In this document: piece by piece, positions 46,487-54,299 of the stretch
How positions within the stretch are numbered: position 1 is the first letter of the stretch
Layout of the letters: each line of letters begins with the position of its first letter
IMG/VR virus record: IMGVR_UViG_3300011115_000934
Span: 33,983 to 97,982 of that record
Strand: one strand, 5' to 3'
DNA from: a virus
DNA length: 64,000 nucleotides
Made by a program: the position numbers and the translations under genes
The notes under the pieces: generated by a model
Databases searched by the model: none
What the model was told of the DNA's origin: nothing
The model's input: only the letters and a program-made list of their open reading frames with translations

Positions 46487-46942
46487 ATGGCATTATTAAT
46501 TACTTCACTATTTCTAGCAATTGTAATTTTTCTACTAACTGTAAAACTAAAAGAGTATGTAGAGGAGGTAGCACAACTTAGAAAGCAAATTGAAGAAACA
46601 GCAGCATCTCATATAGTAGAGAAAGCAAAGGTAAAGAAAGACTCAATGTTTAGATCCTCAGCAGTAAATTGGGGAAAGACAATTGAACACTTTGTACCAT
46701 TCATGTCTAAGTTTCCTGTACCAGCAGAAGATGTGGTTTTCTTAGGGATGCCAATCGACTACGTAGGATTTACTCACACAGATAGTAAAACAAAATGTGA
46801 AGTGCACTTTATTGAAGTCAAGTCAGGAAATGCAGCTTTGATGGGTAAACAGAGAAATATTAAAAAAGCAATTCAAGAGGGAAGAGTTCACTGGCATGAA
46901 ATTGCAGTGGATGGAAACCGAGCAGAAATCAAAGAAGAATAG
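46487..46942 (+). CDS. Membrane-anchored Holliday-junction-resolvase-like nuclease
   Basis: 151 residues. A transmembrane helix (ALLITSLFLAIVIFLLTV) is followed by a short coiled coil and a PD-(D/E)XK core: GKTIEHFVPF, then GMPIDYVGF (Asp) and VHFIEVKSGNA (E-x-K). It resembles the family of Holliday-junction-resolvase-related proteins with an N-terminal anchor. The role is unknown; cleaving DNA at the membrane is a possibility. Confidence 0.75.
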   Translation: MALLITSLFLAIVIFLLTVKLKEYVEEVAQLRKQIEETAASHIVEKAKVKKDSMFRSSAVNWGKTIEHFVPFMSKFPVPAEDVVFLGMPIDYVGFTHTDSKTKCEVHFIEVKSGNAALMGKQRNIKKAIQEGRVHWHEIAVDGNRAEIKEE

Positions 46943-46951: not shown

Positions 46952-46982
46952 AGAGATGGACGTACTATCTAAAATAAAACAA

Positions 46983-48122
46983 ATGTTATACCCTCTACTA
47001 ATCCTAGGGGGTATTTTGTCTACACAGAGTCAGACCTTTACGTACTCTGGGAATATTTATGGCTCAAATGCAGCAGGTATATCAGGTGTACCAGTCTCTC
47101 TTTACAAAAGGACAACTACTACAACTGCAAATGCAAACACTACTGTAAGAACATTTAAAACTCACGCCAGTAATGGAAGTACAAACCAATACGCTTCCTA
47201 TCCGTCGACTAGAGCAGAAATGGATAGATTGTTTAATACAGCTTATTCAAATACAGTTCTGTGGTGGACAGGTACAGTAAGTGCATTATACTCATTGAAC
47301 TTTAATGCAGCCAGTACACTAACAGCAGGAGGAGCATCAGTACCTAATAACGGTGATTACTACTCAGCAGAAGTTACATTTGTATTTACACCAAAAGAAA
47401 CAGGAACGTACTCATTTGGACTAACCTCGGATGATGGTGGTGACTTATGGTTAATGGGATATGGAAATGTAATTGAATGGTACGGAGGAAAAGGAACTGG
47501 CCAATACTTATACGGAAATGTAAATCTAACAGCAGGTACAGCTTATACTTTTATAGCCAGAATGCAAGAGTATGGAGGTGGTGATGGATTATTGGTATAT
47601 TGGAAAAGACCATCACAAGCCGGATACTCACTACAAACAGATGAGGTAGGAGGAACAACCACTACAACATCGGCTTGGGCAGTACAAACAACCACAACTA
47701 CATCAGCATTAGGAGCTTACTCTTTTTCAACACCCTCAGGAACAGGAGTAGAGTTTTACATTACATTCAATCCTCCAGCATTAACAGTACCAGTTCTTTC
47801 AGATGGAACACTTACAAATAGTATTGTAATAGGAAACACAGCATTAAAATCTGTAGATTATTTTAGATATGATGTAAATGGAGATAACAGATTCACAGTT
47901 TCAGATGTATATTCAATATTGGCTAGAAAATCTGGATTGCTTTCTGCCTTTACTCCAACACCACTTAGTAGAATTTTTAATTCAACAGAATGGTCAACTA
48001 TTAACGTATCGACAGCAAATCTAAAAGTATCGTATCCTGGAGTACAGACAGTAACAATTAACTCTCCTGTATCAGGAGGAAGTTCAAACTACTATGTTAG
48101 TAGATTAGGAAACACTAATTAA
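46983..48122 (+). CDS. Secreted PA14-domain protein with dockerin-like C-terminus
   Basis: 380 residues from ATG 46983 (in-frame starts at 46896 and 46956 overlap the previous gene or the promoter). The start MLYPLLILGGILSTQSQ is a signal peptide. A PA14-like beta domain follows: SAEVTFVFTPKETGTYSFGL, SDDGGDLWLMGYG and GLLVYWKRPS, a fold often used for glycan binding. The C-terminal domain has one dockerin-type calcium loop, YDVNGDNRFTVSDVYSIL, and ends NYYVSRLGNTN. This last about 80-residue domain is shared with the next gene. It appears to be an envelope or extracellular phage protein. Confidence 0.8.
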   Translation: MLYPLLILGGILSTQSQTFTYSGNIYGSNAAGISGVPVSLYKRTTTTTANANTTVRTFKTHASNGSTNQYASYPSTRAEMDRLFNTAYSNTVLWWTGTVSALYSLNFNAASTLTAGGASVPNNGDYYSAEVTFVFTPKETGTYSFGLTSDDGGDLWLMGYGNVIEWYGGKGTGQYLYGNVNLTAGTAYTFIARMQEYGGGDGLLVYWKRPSQAGYSLQTDEVGGTTTTTSAWAVQTTTTTSALGAYSFSTPSGTGVEFYITFNPPALTVPVLSDGTLTNSIVIGNTALKSVDYFRYDVNGDNRFTVSDVYSILARKSGLLSAFTPTPLSRIFNSTEWSTINVSTANLKVSYPGVQTVTINSPVSGGSSNYYVSRLGNTN

Positions 48123-48126
48123 ACTA

Positions 48127-48134
48127 TATTTATA
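48127..48134 (+). promoter_or_regulatory. Late-promoter-like motif TATTTATA
   Basis: The octamer lies 57 bases before the ATG at 48192, giving the longest leader of this class. Confidence 0.5.
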
Positions 48135-48191
48135 AAAAGTAAGGTGCATGGGCACTCGGTTGTATTAAACAAATAACTTAAAAACAAAAAA

Positions 48192-49283
48192 ATGAAGAAA
48201 ATTCTTTTAATTTTAAGTGTGATGTTAGTAACACTATCGGGATTTGCACAACAAGTTGCACCAGATAACACTAAACCATACTTAGTATTCGACGCAAGTT
48301 ACAACTTAGCTCCTGTAGCATCAGGAACAAACACGCAAGTTGCAATTTATTACAGCAATCTTAACGCAACAGCTATTAAAGCTATTCAGTTTAGATTCTG
48401 GTATGACAAAACAGTTTTTGATGCTCCAACAGTAACTTATACTGGAGCTGAGACAAACAATGTATTCAACACAAAAGTAAACGCTACAGAAGGAAACGTA
48501 ACAGTTACTTGGGTTTACACAGGAACAAATGCTTCTTTTAATATTGTAAATGGAGCAATGTTCAATGCATCTCTACCATTTAAAGCAGCTTATACCAATG
48601 GTGCAGTAACTGCAATGGCATTTACAGGAGCAACAGCATTCTCAGCTTACGGTACTCTTGCAGCAGGAACAGATACAGCATTAGGATTACAAAACTACGG
48701 AGGTGCATTCACAGAACCAGTATTTAACTATGCAGCTACATTCTTAAATAACCCAACCAATCCTTCAACAGGTATTCCAGTAATCTTACAAAAATCTGCA
48801 AACGGAACAACTTGGACAGATGTAATGACTGTTAATACAGTAACAACAGGAGTAGCAGCATTTACAACTAACTTAGATCAAAACTACTGGCAGATTAGAG
48901 TAAAAGTAGCTCCAGGTACTACAGCACCAGCAGCAATTGCAGCAGCTGATGCAGATATGATTGCTCAAATTGCTACAGGATTACAAACACCAACTGGAAC
49001 TCAATTCTACACTGCTAACCCTAACCAAGCAAACGGAATTACAATTTCAGATTCATATACAGTATTCTCTAGATTGGCTCAAGGTTTAACAACCTATCCA
49101 GGTAACCCTGATATCTTATTCTTTACAGAAGCTCAATACAACACCATTGCAGCAGCTACAACAGATCAATCAGCAACAATTCCAGGAGTTTCAACTTTCC
49201 TTTCAGCTAACATCAATAATACAGTAGCAGCAAATTACTATCTGCTAGTATTAGGAGACGCCAACGGAACAGGTCATAACTAA
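48192..49283 (+). CDS. Secreted cohesin-like protein
   Basis: 363 residues. Clear signal peptide MKKILLILSVMLVTLSGFAQ. A cohesin-like beta-sandwich follows (VAIYYSNLNATAIKAIQFRF, then WYDKTVFDAP), and the C-terminal domain contains ITISDSYTVFSRLAQGL, PGVSTF and NYYLLVLGDANG, matching the end of the preceding PA14 protein. The calcium-binding loop is degenerate. It is followed one base later by a T9SS-tagged cohesin-like protein, so the three probably act together outside the cell. Confidence 0.8.
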   Translation: MKKILLILSVMLVTLSGFAQQVAPDNTKPYLVFDASYNLAPVASGTNTQVAIYYSNLNATAIKAIQFRFWYDKTVFDAPTVTYTGAETNNVFNTKVNATEGNVTVTWVYTGTNASFNIVNGAMFNASLPFKAAYTNGAVTAMAFTGATAFSAYGTLAAGTDTALGLQNYGGAFTEPVFNYAATFLNNPTNPSTGIPVILQKSANGTTWTDVMTVNTVTTGVAAFTTNLDQNYWQIRVKVAPGTTAPAAIAAADADMIAQIATGLQTPTGTQFYTANPNQANGITISDSYTVFSRLAQGLTTYPGNPDILFFTEAQYNTIAAATTDQSATIPGVSTFLSANINNTVAANYYLLVLGDANGTGHN

Positions 49284-49284
49284 T

Positions 49285-50016
49285 ATGGTACGCTATATAA
49301 TCATAGCGTTACTAACAATAAATTCACTCTACTCCCAGGTACAATTTCAAGTGCCTGGGATTACTGTGACTCCCTCCAATACAATAGATCTACCTATAAC
49401 AATCCAAACAAATGGAAATACAGTAGGGAGTTTAGAATTTGCTCTAAATTACGATCAAACAATTTTACAATTCTCAGAAATAGTATTATCAGAAAAAACA
49501 CAGACTTGGTTGACATATGTAATGGATACTGGAAGTGGAAAAGTAAGATGGGGTGGTTATGATAAATCACATGGTCAGCATTCTATCAATACACCAATTG
49601 CATTATTCATATTAAAATTTACTGTCCTAAATCCGAACTGGTTAACAACTCCTATTACAGTTGGAAGAAAGACAGCAGGAGATGTTCAAGGATGGGATAT
49701 CGCAGTAACAAATACAGATGGATATGTAAACTACAACAAAACTGGAATACCAGTTGATGAAACTAGAATTCAAGGAATCATACATCCAAATCCTACAGAT
49801 GGATTAGTAACTGTGGATTTAATATTACCGGTAAGTGGTTTTTATAAAACAACAATTCTTAATCTAAATGGTTCTGAACTAAGAAGAAGAGTAGAACAGT
49901 ACATCAAAGGAGTTAATATCCTAGAAGAGGATCTCACACCTTACCCTAGCGGTACCTATTTATTAAATATAACAACAAGGGACTTTACCCAAACATTTAA
50001 AATTATAAAAAAATAA
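49285..50016 (+). CDS. Secreted cohesin-like protein with T9SS sorting domain
   Basis: 243 residues. Signal peptide MVRYIIIALLTINSLYSQ. A cohesin-like domain (TVGSLEFALNYDQTILQFSE, then FILKFTVLNP). The last about 85 residues are a type A T9SS sorting domain: IIHPNPTDGLVTVDL, then YKTTILNLNGSEL, YPSGTYLLNI and a terminal TFKIIKK. In Bacteroidota such a domain sends proteins through the outer membrane to the cell surface. A phage gene with this tag implies use of the host T9SS and points to the host phylum. Confidence 0.88.
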   Translation: MVRYIIIALLTINSLYSQVQFQVPGITVTPSNTIDLPITIQTNGNTVGSLEFALNYDQTILQFSEIVLSEKTQTWLTYVMDTGSGKVRWGGYDKSHGQHSINTPIALFILKFTVLNPNWLTTPITVGRKTAGDVQGWDIAVTNTDGYVNYNKTGIPVDETRIQGIIHPNPTDGLVTVDLILPVSGFYKTTILNLNGSELRRRVEQYIKGVNILEEDLTPYPSGTYLLNITTRDFTQTFKIIKK

Positions 50017-50019
50017 GCT

Positions 50020-50334
50020 ATGTCAGAAGAAACAAACGAAGGTGGATTATCAGGATTGAAAAAAACCTTAATTGGAACTCTAGGAACTGTTGTAACAGCA
50101 GGAGGAGTATGGTTAACAACACACTTAGGTGGTGGTGAAGCTACAGATAAAGAAGAAGTAAAAACAGAAGTAGCAGCACCTGCAGCAGCAGCACCAGTTG
50201 TTATTAATTTACAAAACAACAACACAAACCAACAAAAACAATCAGGAGGTACACATACCATTGTTAAAGAAAGAGTAATTGAGAAAGCAGCTCCAGTACA
50301 ACAAGCAGCACCTGCTCAAAAAGAATCTTGGTAA
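50020..50334 (+). CDS. Single-pass membrane protein, lysis-like
   Basis: 104 residues with one predicted transmembrane helix (LIGTLGTVVTAGGVWLTTHL, about residues 17-36), then an acidic and Ala/Pro/Gln-rich extended tail. With the next gene it forms a pair of small membrane proteins, so holin or spanin functions are possible. No known family recognised. Confidence 0.65.
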   Translation: MSEETNEGGLSGLKKTLIGTLGTVVTAGGVWLTTHLGGGEATDKEEVKTEVAAPAAAAPVVINLQNNNTNQQKQSGGTHTIVKERVIEKAAPVQQAAPAQKESW

Positions 50335-50337
50335 TAG

Positions 50338-50601
50338 ATGAAAGAAGCTGAAGGTTTTGCAGGTACATTTTTTTCTAAACTAAAAGAGCAATCTTTTACT
50401 ATAATCCTTATGGTAGGAGTTATTTGGTATCAAGGAGTGATGATGGAAGAAAGAGTAGCGTATTGGCAAAAGTTATACGAAGAGAAAGAAGCTTACATTG
50501 AACAAAGTACTAAAGACGACAAAGCGCTTTTATTGAATAGAATAGAATATTTACAACAACAGAGAGACAAATACGTAGAAGATTTACTAGAAAAAAAATA
50601 A
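50338..50601 (+). CDS. Small membrane protein with coiled coil (BhlA/holin-like)
   Basis: 87 residues. A transmembrane helix near the start (FTIILMVGVIWYQGVMM) is followed by a charged helical tail (ERVAYWQKLYEEKEAYIEQS). This architecture matches BhlA-type holin-like proteins and also some spanins. Adjacent genes are secreted or membrane proteins. The lysis role is an inference. Confidence 0.65.
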   Translation: MKEAEGFAGTFFSKLKEQSFTIILMVGVIWYQGVMMEERVAYWQKLYEEKEAYIEQSTKDDKALLLNRIEYLQQQRDKYVEDLLEKK

Positions 50602-50604
50602 AAA

Positions 50605-51561
50605 ATGGCAGAAGAAACTATTGAAGTTACGACAGGTAACGAACAAGTAGGTGCATCAGCAGAAGCACACGCAGGAACAGAAGTAACAGATACATCAGTA
50701 TCAGCAAATGCAGGAGTATCAGCCGAAGCTCATGCCAATGTAGAAAATACAACAGAGGTTGTAGAAGGAGTAGATATCAACTCAGAAGCACACGCTACAG
50801 CAGAAGCATCAGTAGAGGCAGAAGCACAAGCAGGATGGGATGGACAAGACGCATCAGCATCAGCTGGAGTATCAGCTGAGGTAAGAGTAGAGGTAGGAGC
50901 TTCAACAGAAGTAGAAACTGATTACGGAACAGCAGGAGTACATGCCGGAGCATATGCAGAAGCACATGCAGGAGTTGGAGCAGATGCTTCAATAGGAGCA
51001 CACGGTGCTGAAGCAAATGCAGGAGCATCAGTAGGTACATCAGTAGGAGTAGAAGCTGGAGTAACAGCACAATCAGGTGATGTATCAGCAGAAGCTAATG
51101 CAGGAGTATCTGTAGGAGTACAAGCAGGTGCTGAAGTTGGAGGTGGAGCTACTTATGATGATGGAGCTATTACATTAGGAGTTGAAGGTGAATTAGCACT
51201 TTTAGTTGGAGTAGATATAGATGCATCAGTAACAATAGATGTATCAGATGAAGTTGAAGCAGCAAAAGAGGCAGCAGCACAAGCAGCTCAAGCTGCAGCA
51301 GACTTATTGGCATCTCAAGAAGCAGCAGAAGCACAACGTGTAGCAGAAGAAGCAGCTAGAATTGCACAAGAACAAGCAGCAGCAGCTCAAAGAGAATTAG
51401 AAAGACAAGCAAGAGAAGCTCAACAAGCCTATGAAGCAGCTCAAAGAGAATTAGAAAGACAAGCAAGAGAAGCTGAAAGAGTTGCAAGAGAAACTCAAGA
51501 CGCACTTGATAGAGCAGCTAGAGAAGCAAAACATCACTTAAACCCAAAGAACTGGTTCTAA
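50605..51561 (+). CDS. Ala/Gly/Val repeat protein with helical C-terminus
   Basis: 318 residues. The first 215 consist of alternating small and polar residues with recurring AEAHA and ANAGVS units (for example VSANAGVSAEAHANVE), which suggests a beta-solenoid or amyloid-like strand stack. The rest is a charged Ala-rich helix (EEAARIAQEQAAAAQRELER) ending HLNPKNWF. No signal peptide is visible. Its place just before the CsgG-like pore makes it a possible substrate or partner, but this is only proximity. Confidence 0.7.
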   Translation: MAEETIEVTTGNEQVGASAEAHAGTEVTDTSVSANAGVSAEAHANVENTTEVVEGVDINSEAHATAEASVEAEAQAGWDGQDASASAGVSAEVRVEVGASTEVETDYGTAGVHAGAYAEAHAGVGADASIGAHGAEANAGASVGTSVGVEAGVTAQSGDVSAEANAGVSVGVQAGAEVGGGATYDDGAITLGVEGELALLVGVDIDASVTIDVSDEVEAAKEAAAQAAQAAADLLASQEAAEAQRVAEEAARIAQEQAAAAQRELERQAREAQQAYEAAQRELERQAREAERVARETQDALDRAAREAKHHLNPKNWF

Positions 51562-51653
51562 TGGGAAATATAATAATGGGACTTGTGGTTTATGAATGCC
51601 TAAGAGCTATTTTATTAAATGCTGTAGGTAAATATAATAACAGAGAAAGGTGA
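51561..51653 (+). CDS. Very small membrane-like ORF coupled to CsgG gene
   Basis: 30 residues, MGNIIMGLVVYECLRAILLN and a charged end. Its ATG overlaps the previous stop by one base, and its TGA overlaps the GTG start of the next gene, as expected for translational coupling. The coding status is uncertain. Confidence 0.4.
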   Translation: MGNIIMGLVVYECLRAILLNAVGKYNNRER

Positions 51654-52360
51654 AAAAATTCATAACATTATTATTAATAATATTTAGTTTAACAGGCTCT
51701 GCTCAAAAGATAGGGTCTGTTAAAACTGAAGTATATCAAGCAGATTTTGAAAAGAAACAATCACTGGCTGTGGTATCTGATTATGCTGGGGATGTTGTCA
51801 TTCCTATTCAGATTCTTAAAATTGGTATCAACGAAGAGTTGTACGAAATGTACCCTGAACTAAAAGATAAAAGAGTTGGTTTAGGAGTATCAAATATAGT
51901 ATTAGAATATCTAGAATCTACAAACAGATTTAAGTTTACAGAAGACAGAGAAGAAATAAAACAAAAAATGATTGCCCAACATATAGCTTCAGCTAAAGGT
52001 ATATCAGAAAATAAAATAGAAGTTAAAGGAAATGTTATATTAGCAAAGTATTTTGTTTATATAGAAGTATACGATTTCAGCATAGGTGAGGATGAAGAAG
52101 TTTCAACCTCTGGAGCTGAAATAAGACAGAAAACAATATTAGGGTTACAGATAAGATTTGTGGATGCACAAAGCGGTGAAATAATCACAGGATCAGGATC
52201 CGGTGAAGCAGTTACAGTGAAGAAAGCAAGCCTATTAGACGGACTCGACGATATTAAGTTTAACCAATCAACAATCGGAGTATCTACCAAAAAGTCATTA
52301 GAAACTGCCTCTTCAAGAGTAGTATCAAAATTGATTAAGAAGGGGATATTTCCGAACTAA
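51650..52360 (+). CDS. CsgG-like outer-membrane secretion pore
   Basis: 236 residues from a GTG start. Signal peptide MKKFITLLLIIFSLTGSAQ without the lipobox Cys of E. coli CsgG. The body has RVGLGVSNIVLEYLESTNRF, EVKGNVILAKYFVYIEVYDF, LGLQIRFVDAQSGEIITGSG and a C-terminal helix LETASSRVVSKLIKKG, the pattern of CsgG family proteins. In bacteria nine copies make a pore for curli subunits. CsgG homologues are known in some marine T4-like phages, but their purpose is not established. The stop overlaps the next ATG. Confidence 0.75.
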   Translation: MKKFITLLLIIFSLTGSAQKIGSVKTEVYQADFEKKQSLAVVSDYAGDVVIPIQILKIGINEELYEMYPELKDKRVGLGVSNIVLEYLESTNRFKFTEDREEIKQKMIAQHIASAKGISENKIEVKGNVILAKYFVYIEVYDFSIGEDEEVSTSGAEIRQKTILGLQIRFVDAQSGEIITGSGSGEAVTVKKASLLDGLDDIKFNQSTIGVSTKKSLETASSRVVSKLIKKGIFPN

Positions 52361-53847
52361 TGAAAAAATGGATTTCTTTATTTATATTTTTTGTTTTCCT
52401 ACAGGCGTCAGCCCAGTACAGCTACACCTATACAGACCCATGTACACTTCAGTTAAAGAGCGTATTTGTACCTGCTGGAGGTGGTGTAGTAGTAAACTAC
52501 TTCGATAACCACAATACATTCTCAGCAAATGACTTCTCCTCAGGAGCATTTGATAGTTGGATCACTCAAGTATCCCAACAAAATTCTAACTCACCTTGCC
52601 AAACAGTTACAACCACTTTAGTAAATAACATAACATCAACCGTAGTATCAAACACAGTTGGCATATTAACAAACGTTGTAGCAATATCTTCTCTAGCTCA
52701 ATCAATGGCTAGTATAAGTAGTTCTATAGGAAGTTCAATGTCTGCAACAGCAGGTGGTATTTCAAATACCAGCATTGGAAATGCAGTAGACAATAACCAA
52801 AGTAATTCAAATGGAAAATCAGATAGTAAAAACGGAGGAAGTACAGGAAGTGCTGGAAGTAATCAAACAAACAACCAAAATGAAGGAAGCACTACCCCTA
52901 GTACATCAACTGGAGGAAATACTAACCCAACAGGAGGAACAAGCACAAGCCAAGGAGGAAACCCTTCAAGTCCAAATCAACCAACTCAAGGAGGAGAACA
53001 AACGTCTCAACCATCTGTAGAAGGAGGAACATCCTCAGGGACAACAGGTAATACAGCAAACTCAATTTCAAATTCTGTAGATGGGGGATCTTCATCAGGA
53101 GCATCAAGCAATACAGCAAACTCAATTTCTAACTCTATAGATGGAGGAAGTAGTGAAGGTGGTAGTTCATCAGGAGGTTCATCTAGTTCTAAAAAACAAG
53201 CCAATGCTAAAACATCCTCAGGAAGTTTAATTGCCTCAGGAGATATGGTTGCCATTTCAAGTACGGATGGAACAACAGCAAACCAATATAAGATAGTAGC
53301 AAGTATAACACATGCTAATACTAGAGGTACAAGAATTAAAGGAGTACTGTTCAATTATACAACAGGAGCAAATAATGTAAATGTAACTCTATATAAATCC
53401 TGGATTAATAAAACAAGAAGTTTAAATACCATTGCAGCAAATTCTACTATGATGGATTTTGAAAAAAATATATTTAATACTACAACAGGATTAGAATCTT
53501 ACAAAATAAATAAAAGCATAACAGCAATGTTTGGTATGAATTTTACAGCAGGGAAGATGGGTGAGAGAAGCTTCTATAACTTATCTGCAGTAGGAGGAGG
53601 ACATGTTAGTACAAAAGTAACTGATAGAGTTTCAACTAGCTTTTTAGTTCTAGCAATCTATTCTCCGTTCACTCAATTCTATGATGGAAAGTGGTGGAGT
53701 GCAGGAGTTTTATTTGTACCATTTAATTCATGGGATTTTAAAATAACAAAGACGTTCAAATATAATGTAAGCTTTACAGGAGTTTATCAAATGAATGAAA
53801 GTTTTCTTAATTATCAAATATTAACCGGAGGCAAAATATCATTCTAA
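52360..53847 (+). CDS. Secreted protein with low-complexity linker and barrel-like end
   Basis: 495 residues. Signal peptide KKWISLFIFFVFLQASAQ. A domain with two Cys (DPCTLQL, SPCQTV) is followed by about 170 residues rich in Gly, Ser, Asn and Thr, with two near-identical copies of NTANSISNS. The last about 170 residues have alternating aromatic strands (FKYNVSFTGVYQMNESFLNY) and end in Phe (GGKISF), as in outer-membrane beta-barrels. It overlaps the CsgG-like gene by one base and may be its accessory or an independent barrel. Confidence 0.7.
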   Translation: MKKWISLFIFFVFLQASAQYSYTYTDPCTLQLKSVFVPAGGGVVVNYFDNHNTFSANDFSSGAFDSWITQVSQQNSNSPCQTVTTTLVNNITSTVVSNTVGILTNVVAISSLAQSMASISSSIGSSMSATAGGISNTSIGNAVDNNQSNSNGKSDSKNGGSTGSAGSNQTNNQNEGSTTPSTSTGGNTNPTGGTSTSQGGNPSSPNQPTQGGEQTSQPSVEGGTSSGTTGNTANSISNSVDGGSSSGASSNTANSISNSIDGGSSEGGSSSGGSSSSKKQANAKTSSGSLIASGDMVAISSTDGTTANQYKIVASITHANTRGTRIKGVLFNYTTGANNVNVTLYKSWINKTRSLNTIAANSTMMDFEKNIFNTTTGLESYKINKSITAMFGMNFTAGKMGERSFYNLSAVGGGHVSTKVTDRVSTSFLVLAIYSPFTQFYDGKWWSAGVLFVPFNSWDFKITKTFKYNVSFTGVYQMNESFLNYQILTGGKISF

Positions 53848-54299
53848 TGAAAAAACTATTACTACTATTACCGTTATTGTTCCTACTATCATCAGATACA
53901 GCACCAAAGTGTTACAAAGTAACCAAAGTTACAACCCTAGTAGAAGCACCTGAAATGAAAAAGGAAAGGATCTTATTTGGAATCAAACAGATGACAGAAG
54001 AAATCCTATCTGAAAAACACAACATATGCGAAGATGGAACTCCAGTTGAAGTTGAAATAATGTCAATTGAAGCTCCTTCTACATCTACCTCTTTTGGTCC
54101 ATTTGCAAAAGAGAAAAAAGAAACCATTGTCAAACTTAGAATCATAATTGGAAAAGATGATTACTGGGGACAGGGTAAAGCAAACGTCACAGTTCAGTCT
54201 ACATTCCTAGATCTAAACGACGATAACTTACCATTTAGTAAAACTGCATTTTCAGGAGCAGTTAAAAAAGCTTTGGTCGAAGCTGTTGGAGAAATGTAA
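53847..54299 (+). CDS. Small exported protein of the CsgG operon
   Basis: 150 residues. Signal peptide KKLLLLLPLLFLLSSDTAP. The body has two Cys and a KETIVKLRIIIGKDDYWGQG strand pair, and ends in an amphipathic helix (SGAVKKALVEAVGEM). Size and location resemble CsgE/CsgF-type accessory proteins, but I see no clear sequence match. The start overlaps the previous stop by one base. Confidence 0.65.
   Translation: MKKLLLLLPLLFLLSSDTAPKCYKVTKVTTLVEAPEMKKERILFGIKQMTEEILSEKHNICEDGTPVEVEIMSIEAPSTSTSFGPFAKEKKETIVKLRIIIGKDDYWGQGKANVTVQSTFLDLNDDNLPFSKTAFSGAVKKALVEAVGEM

Follow-up and report, generated by a model that had tools for sequence, protein, structure and literature searches.

A putative surface-anchored cohesin-dockerin scaffold encoded by a conserved cassette of large Bacteroidota phages

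What could a large phage build from a run of exported proteins that carry cohesin, sugar-binding and secretion domains? This question is raised by a gene cassette at 46.9-54.3 kb on the plus strand of a 64,000-nucleotide stretch of viral DNA (the window), which comprises positions 33983-97982 of the 161,982-base virus record IMGVR_UViG_3300011115_000934. The cassette encodes, in order, a protein that we term the tip, the cohesin proteins Coh1 and CohT9, the small membrane proteins TM104 and TM87, the repeat protein Rep318, an open reading frame (ORF) of 30 amino acids, a CsgG-like protein, a barrel protein (Bar495) and a small exported protein (Ex150). Successive genes are spaced by 69, 1, 3, 3, 3, −1, −4, −1 and −1 bases, an almost gapless arrangement, and Sec-type signal peptides were recognized by inspection at the start of six of the products, in agreement with the initial annotation of the window, which had counted at least six exported proteins. 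As described below, the cassette probably encodes a sugar-binding cohesin-dockerin scaffold that is anchored on the surface of the infected flavobacterial cell.

The 162-kb virus to which the window belongs is related to Flavobacterium phage vB_FspM_immuto, and the NrdA proteins of the two are 96.5% identical. Immuto was isolated on Flavobacterium sp. LMO8, and its 160-kb genome contains T4-type capsid, sheath and baseplate genes. Its homologues of the cassette genes, gp13-gp19, are flanked by NrdA/nuclease genes and a small-gene block, an arrangement that matches the window, and they are annotated as lectin C-type, cohesin domain or hypothetical, and nothing more.

Cohesin, dockerin-like and sorting domains

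CohT9 (49285..50016, plus strand), the putative surface anchor, consists of a signal peptide, a cohesin domain (49339-49659; PF00963, 1.7e-7, above the cut-off) and a type A sorting tail of the type IX secretion system (T9SS; 49780-50013). The tail was matched by TIGR04183 (1.3e-9, 37.9 bits against a cut-off of 23) and by PF18962 (7.3e-7, 29.8 bits against a cut-off of 27), and the protein thus bears the signature of a T9SS type A substrate, namely a signal peptide together with a C-terminal sorting domain that scores above the cut-off. Flavobacterium species generally possess a T9SS. When the whole 162-kb record was scanned, the cohesin model matched in two places and the T9SS model in one, all inside the cassette; because both models match only there, the combination of cohesin and T9SS domains is not background. 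The second cohesin lies in Coh1 (48192..49283, plus strand; cohesin at 48318-48644, behind a signal peptide), where PF00963 scored 3.6e-4, below the cut-off, on the protein and just at the cut-off in the genome scan (24.1 bits). PDB cohesins match the profile of the cohesin family. The two cohesin-like proteins of the initial annotation, one of them with a T9SS tag, were thus borne out. Coh1 had been described there as a cohesin protein only, and this description was incomplete, as Coh1 also carries a C-terminal dockerin-like domain (48981-49280) with a partly degenerate calcium loop.

The tip protein (46956..48122, plus strand; the start is uncertain between 46896, 46956 and 46983) has a signal peptide, a PA14 domain (47346-47636; PF07691, E=4.9e-7, above the Pfam cut-off) and a C-terminal dockerin-like domain (47769-48119) that is homologous to that of Coh1. 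The Pfam Dockerin model did not match the tip protein of the window and gave 12.7 bits in the genome scan; within the dockerin-like family, PF00404 (Dockerin_1) matched 22 of 36 members (best 4.5e-5). The most conserved columns of these 36 relatives include D35, N37 and D46 of the loop DVNGDNRFTVSD, which are positions 1, 3 and 12 of the dockerin calcium loop, and the family profile aligned weakly (E=0.32) with both helices of the dockerin of the adaptor scaffoldin ScaB (4uyp). The PA14/dockerin-like protein of the initial annotation was therefore recovered. In this family the second calcium loop is clear and the first is not apparent, and the chain continues for about 60 residues beyond the second helix. 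Judged from their sequences, the C-terminal domains of the tip and Coh1 are dockerin-like rather than canonical dockerins, a label that we use because of the missing first loop, the extension of about 60 residues and the partly degenerate loop of Coh1.

Conservation of the module and exchange of its parts

To follow the cassette across phages, loci were gathered from two viral scans that started from CsgG-like proteins and one that started from CohT9, with the immuto isolate and two contigs of metagenome-assembled genomes (MAGs) added, giving 163 loci over 11 kb with 98 distinct CsgG-like sequences; each scan contributed its best 80 loci, and the locus counts are therefore lower bounds. In the 98 distinct loci, the CsgG-like gene occurs together with a cohesin gene in 96, TM104 in 96, the barrel gene in 94 and an Ex150-type gene in 92, the last count having been made after separating Ex150 matches from those of the CsgG-like protein, and several of the absences are contig ends. 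Contigs with the cassette reach 308 kb. The cassette is a conserved module common to very different large phages. The CsgG-like protein is 52-93% identical across these phages, and when 20 records were probed with the immuto capsid protein and terminase, both were unmatched in L122, L144, L168, L134 and L119, where the CsgG-like protein is 52-59% identical to that of the window over nearly its full length. These records may be fragments, and a non-match is not proof of absence; the divergence in matching records stands, as in L048, L069 and L055, where the terminase is about 30% identical and the CsgG-like protein about 75-76%. From these comparisons the cassette appears either to move between phage lineages or to be kept far more tightly than the packaging genes. 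A cellular origin was rejected, as a scan of bacterial genomes from 84,980 species found the cassette in just two MAG contigs, both of which also carry an endolysin gene.

The anchor of the cohesin protein comes in two forms. The T9SS tail is present on the cohesin protein in 59 of the 98 loci, while in 35 the cohesin protein is tail-less and its gene is separated from TM104 by one that encodes a lipoprotein of about 120 residues; tail and lipoprotein were never found together (0/98). Of the 35 lipoproteins, 28 were recognized by pattern and the others by inspection: five whose lipoboxes deviate a little from the pattern, and two whose gene has an apparent homing endonuclease inserted next to it. 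Neither device was assigned in two loci, L162 and L016 (in the latter the CohT9 frame is broken), and L002 and L159 have no cohesin gene in the stretch examined. Behind the lipoprotein cysteine the sequence is mostly polar and then acidic (CSDLE, CQEI, CTEP, CADVE), and these N-termini resemble the export signals of Bacteroidetes lipoproteins (PMC5080379) without matching one consensus. If surface anchoring of the cohesin protein is a required property, this would explain the exchange of two different surface-delivery devices. When the lipoprotein (e.g., L122:8678-9040) was aligned with the T9SS tail, hhalign gave 87% (E=3.8e-6), and TIGR04183 matched 3 of 21 lipoprotein members weakly (best 0.0026); the two may possibly share one fold. 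In two loci, ORFs that look like homing endonucleases are inserted in the stretch from the cohesin gene to TM104, to either side of the lipoprotein gene (L136:3894-4463 and L164:2094-2693).

In many relatives, Coh1 and CohT9 are fused into one chain of about 630 residues that reads cohesin, dockerin-like domain, cohesin and T9SS tail, and such natural fusions point to joint action of the two proteins where they are separate. The tip is likewise exchanged. In L082, Coh1, CohT9 and the tip dockerin-like domain are 94%, 92% and 88% identical to those of the window, and a C-type lectin replaces PA14; the tip of L084 carries a lectin and LamG. A Pfam search of 38 tip and cohesin proteins found Lectin_C in 18, LamG in 5, GEVED in 4 and PA14 in 2, and on the tips scanned it found binding domains only and no polysaccharide-degrading enzymes. 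By its domain make-up, the tip is modular, with an exchangeable, putatively sugar-binding domain on a conserved dockerin-like domain.

Envelope proteins and neighboring genes

The CsgG-like gene (51650..52360, plus strand; GTG start) is the best conserved core gene of the cassette. Pfam gave no match for the window protein, although PF03783 (CsgG) matched 3 of 29 relatives (best 8.5e-5), and in a viral library the top match was a Caudovirales protein named CsgG (A0A6J5RM04). Because a search of PDB sequences with the family profile found nothing, a comparison of folds was needed. The AlphaFold model is of moderate quality (predicted local distance difference test, pLDDT, 65.5), and the first 23 PDB matches found by Foldseek are all CsgG or curli-complex chains (best 4uv2, E=1.1e-7, probability 1.00), followed by PelC, FlgT and LptE-like folds. 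Membership in the CsgG fold is well supported by this model. In its predicted fold and exported location the protein resembles CsgG (4uv2, 6l7a), PelC and FlgT; unlike CsgG, it has a shorter beta region, about 12% sequence identity and neither a lipobox nor a lipidated N-terminal cysteine in the window protein, the signal peptide ending GSAQ|K. The model shows one long hairpin and one strand, compared with the two membrane hairpins of CsgG. The 'CsgG-like pore' of the initial annotation is hence retained as to fold and not as to pore. A curli system was rejected, as no curlin, CsgE or CsgF was recognized in the cassette with Pfam/NCBIfam and there is no lipobox.

Bar495 (52360..53847, plus strand) has a signal peptide, a conserved N-terminal domain with two cysteines (DPC...PC), a long low-complexity linker rich in Ser, Thr, Gly and Asn, and a C-terminal domain (53209-53847) of 212 residues that AlphaFold models as a 12-stranded barrel (pLDDT 87.1). 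Foldseek matched this barrel to the 12-stranded outer-membrane barrels NalP, NanC, FapF and KdgM, and we are confident, on the basis of the model, that the C-terminus is an outer-membrane barrel of this size, as the annotation of a barrel-like protein had anticipated. The last gene encodes Ex150 (53847..54299, plus strand; core gene, 92/98 loci), which shows a distant similarity to the CsgG-like protein (hhalign 96.6%, with the Ex150 profile also matching that protein), but the similarity takes in the signal peptide and the kinship is only suggestive. A relationship of Ex150 to ribosomal protein S1 was discarded, since the PDB profile matches (best E=6e-4 over 47 residues) were judged to be chance.

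Between the cohesin genes and the CsgG-like gene lie the two small membrane proteins and the repeat protein that had been annotated there. TM104 (50020..50334, plus strand; core gene, 96/98 loci) has a single N-terminal membrane segment and a tail rich in Ala, Pro and Asn. TM87 (50338..50601, plus strand), an accessory gene that adjoins the endolysin gene in other phages, encodes a membrane segment and a coiled coil with a weak match to a holin family (phrog_9316, 0.0014). Traveling with it is the accessory gene Rep318 (50605..51561, plus strand), whose product has long Ala/Gly/Val repeats, a charged C-terminal helix and no signal peptide. The ORF of 30 amino acids (51561-51653, plus strand; MGNIIMGLVVYECLRAILLNAVGKYNNRER) overlaps both the Rep318 stop and the start of the CsgG-like gene, and through it the overlapping starts that had been noted from 51561 to 53847 are confirmed as overlaps of 1, 4, 1 and 1 bases. 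Rep318 also lies ahead of the CsgG-like gene in L100 and L102, and there the two overlap directly, with little room left for such an ORF. A search of PHROGs with the core cassette genes returned no informative family.

Lysis genes are frequent neighbors of the module. Of the loci, 56 have a GH19 endolysin gene inside the examined stretch. In the first set, 38 loci have a holin-like membrane gene, which frequently separates the CsgG-like gene from the barrel gene; it had no match in PHROGs and is named for its size, membrane segments and place. In L048, TM87 and Rep318 come after the endolysin gene, whereas they lie inside the cassette in the window phage, and in immuto the Rep318 homologue follows the endolysin and holin genes. 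Because holin and endolysin genes are frequently interspersed with those of the cassette, late expression of the cassette is likely. Several further features of these neighborhoods were observed. The holin-like protein of L122:9351-9929 has an extension of DxDGDG repeats and a Cys/His cluster, and like forms occur in L108 and L172. Upstream of the tip gene in the window, 46487-46942 encodes a Holliday-resolvase-related endonuclease (PF10107, 3.1e-23) with a hydrophobic N-terminus resembling a membrane anchor. Immuto gp012 (L103:9935-10513), between the Holliday-type nuclease and the tip gene, is a NUC1-type nuclease with a signal-peptide-like start that has no counterpart at that place in the window, and immuto L103:18607-37015 holds a 7-deazaguanine DNA modification gene set (annotated QueC, QueD, QueE, FolE, DpdA and QueF).

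The proposed scaffold, its rivals and known systems

In the assembly that we propose, CohT9 would be secreted by the T9SS of the host and fixed to the surface by its tail, as the tail sequence and T9SS biology suggest. Coh1, with a cohesin at one end and a dockerin-like domain at the other, would be an adaptor or a repeating shaft, and the tip, with a dockerin-like domain only, would present the exchangeable sugar-binding domain (PA14 or lectin), so that an anchor with cohesin only, an adaptor with both and a tip with dockerin only may pair into a chain that runs in order from base to adaptor to tip. Together with TM104, which would sit in the inner membrane, the CsgG-like protein, Bar495 and Ex150 may form a trans-envelope complex that exports the tail-less parts or holds the assembly. 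The T9SS channel SprA is wide and takes folded cargo, so that tip and adaptor, bound to CohT9, could also be carried out with it. The scaffold would occupy the glycan receptors of the phage, first on the infected cell and afterwards on its debris, as Llp of phage T5 does for a protein receptor. Variation of tips between close relatives would fit changing glycan receptors, and masking, if true, predicts tips that match the host glycan. Masking as the purpose is offered tentatively; a surface-displayed scaffold that most likely occupies the phage's own glycan receptors is our best explanation as a whole, and we judge it to have an even chance of being correct. It is possible, if doubtful, that a mobile Bacteroidota-phage cassette builds a surface organelle of an undescribed kind, similar to a pilus or cellulosome, with an anchored cohesin base, a cohesin-dockerin shaft that may polymerize head to tail, an exchangeable lectin tip and its own CsgG-like and barrel envelope complex.

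Several observations weigh against the scaffold as we describe it. The dockerin-like domains of the window escape Pfam singly and have one clear calcium loop and an insertion. The Coh1 loop of the window phage reads NPNQANGITISD, without acidic residues at positions 1 and 5, which makes calcium binding by this protein doubtful; in the fused relatives the loop reads ADVNGDNNITVSD. The fused chains retain the dockerin-like domain, so that fusion is not a simple replacement of docking, and this domain may thus join molecules to each other beyond binding the base. Furthermore, the GH19 endolysin gene lies about 35 kb downstream of the cassette in the window phage and about 27 kb from it in immuto. 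The family assignments and a change of the host surface are supported by the signal peptides, the T9SS tail, the complementary placing of cohesin and dockerin-like domains, the CsgG fold, the outer-membrane barrel and the conservation as a unit. This was the part of the earlier proposal, that the phage remodels the host surface, which held. The spread of the module among very different large phages, often among lysis genes, and its exchangeable anchor and modular tip go beyond that annotation.

The main alternative to receptor masking is that the same scaffold serves adhesion or aggregation, with infected cells adhering to one another, to particles or to further host cells, so that progeny are freed beside new hosts. 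The tip domains (PA14, C-type lectin, LamG, GEVED) are of types typical of adhesion or glycan binding and differ from one close relative to the next, and T9SS-sorted proteins and lectins function in flavobacterial adhesion, but no finding favors adhesion over masking, the neighborhood of lysis genes fits both, and we regard this purpose as rather unlikely. A different reading takes the CsgG-like protein and the 12-stranded barrel as a dedicated export channel, comparable to CsgG of curli and FapF of Fap, through which the tips or a fibre protein would pass to the outside, the scaffold being its cargo. The best fold match is CsgG, the leading barrel matches include FapF, and neither tip nor adaptor carries a T9SS tail. 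However, the predicted hairpin and strand are not the hairpin pair of CsgG, the lipid anchor is missing, no curli partners were recognized in the cassette, the barrel matches are generic for 12-stranded barrels, and PelC and LptE-like folds also match the CsgG-like model; a dedicated channel is a speculative prospect.

It is improbable that the CsgG-like protein, the barrel, Ex150 and TM104 perform an outer-membrane lysis step as a substitute for spanins, with the cohesin proteins incidental or holding the complex. TM104, a single-segment membrane protein with a long tail, could bridge the envelope together with the three exported proteins, and holin-like and endolysin genes lie inside or beside the cassette in many phages, yet 96 of 98 loci have a cohesin gene, with a surface anchor carried or adjoining in nearly all, for which a pure lysis device would have no need, and the distance to the GH19 endolysin gene in the window phage and immuto also speaks against it. 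Phage tails often contain lectin-like and Ig-like domains, and the proteins might for that reason be ordinary virion components such as tail fibre or whisker proteins with adhesive domains. This was rejected as highly improbable, because six Sec-type signal peptides, an outer-membrane barrel and a T9SS tail or lipoprotein anchor would be unexpected there; the cassette also lies away from the tail genes in immuto.

The preferred scaffold resembles several known systems in part. Like Cryophage, a Bacteroidetes phage with variable type A T9SS-sorted proteins, one with PA14, for which superinfection exclusion was proposed (Bellas et al. 2020, PMC7468147), it involves phage-encoded T9SS type A cargo and PA14. 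In Cryophage the sorting tail is on the effectors themselves, whereas here the dockerin-bearing tips have no tag of their own and seem to be anchored by a cohesin protein that has one, and the conserved set includes a CsgG-fold protein and an outer-membrane barrel. As in cellulosomes, there would be a cohesin anchor, an adaptor with cohesin and dockerin and a dockerin-bearing carbohydrate-binding client, the pairing being proposed from the domains; unlike cellulosomes, the system is phage-encoded, lacks enzymes and belongs to a Gram-negative host, its anchor is a T9SS tail or a lipoprotein, and its dockerin-like domain has an insertion and one clear calcium loop. Superinfection-exclusion proteins prevent adsorption to infected cells and lysed fragments, and the purpose proposed here, keeping phages off infected cells and lysis debris, is that of T5 Llp (PMC9586334); Llp is one small lipoprotein directed at a protein receptor, in contrast to a multi-protein scaffold with sugar-binding tips that is probably late. 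CsgG-type phage genes appear as csgGF of temperate sediment viruses, mentioned in a portion of PMC9636769, and as the Caudovirales entry A0A6J5RM04, with no cohesin-dockerin context in that portion or entry. In the literature searched, which mostly excluded subscription papers, we found no description of phage cohesin-dockerin systems or of the conserved assembly, while phage T9SS cargo is already known (PMC7468147).

If the proposal is true, many large Bacteroidota phages would rebuild the surface of the dying cell with a modular sugar-binding scaffold, using host secretion routes together with envelope machinery of their own. This would add a new control over superinfection, loss to debris or cell clumping in abundant aquatic bacteria, and would amount to a naturally swappable display system, for which immuto on Flavobacterium sp. 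LMO8, an isolate that carries the cassette, provides a tractable test case.

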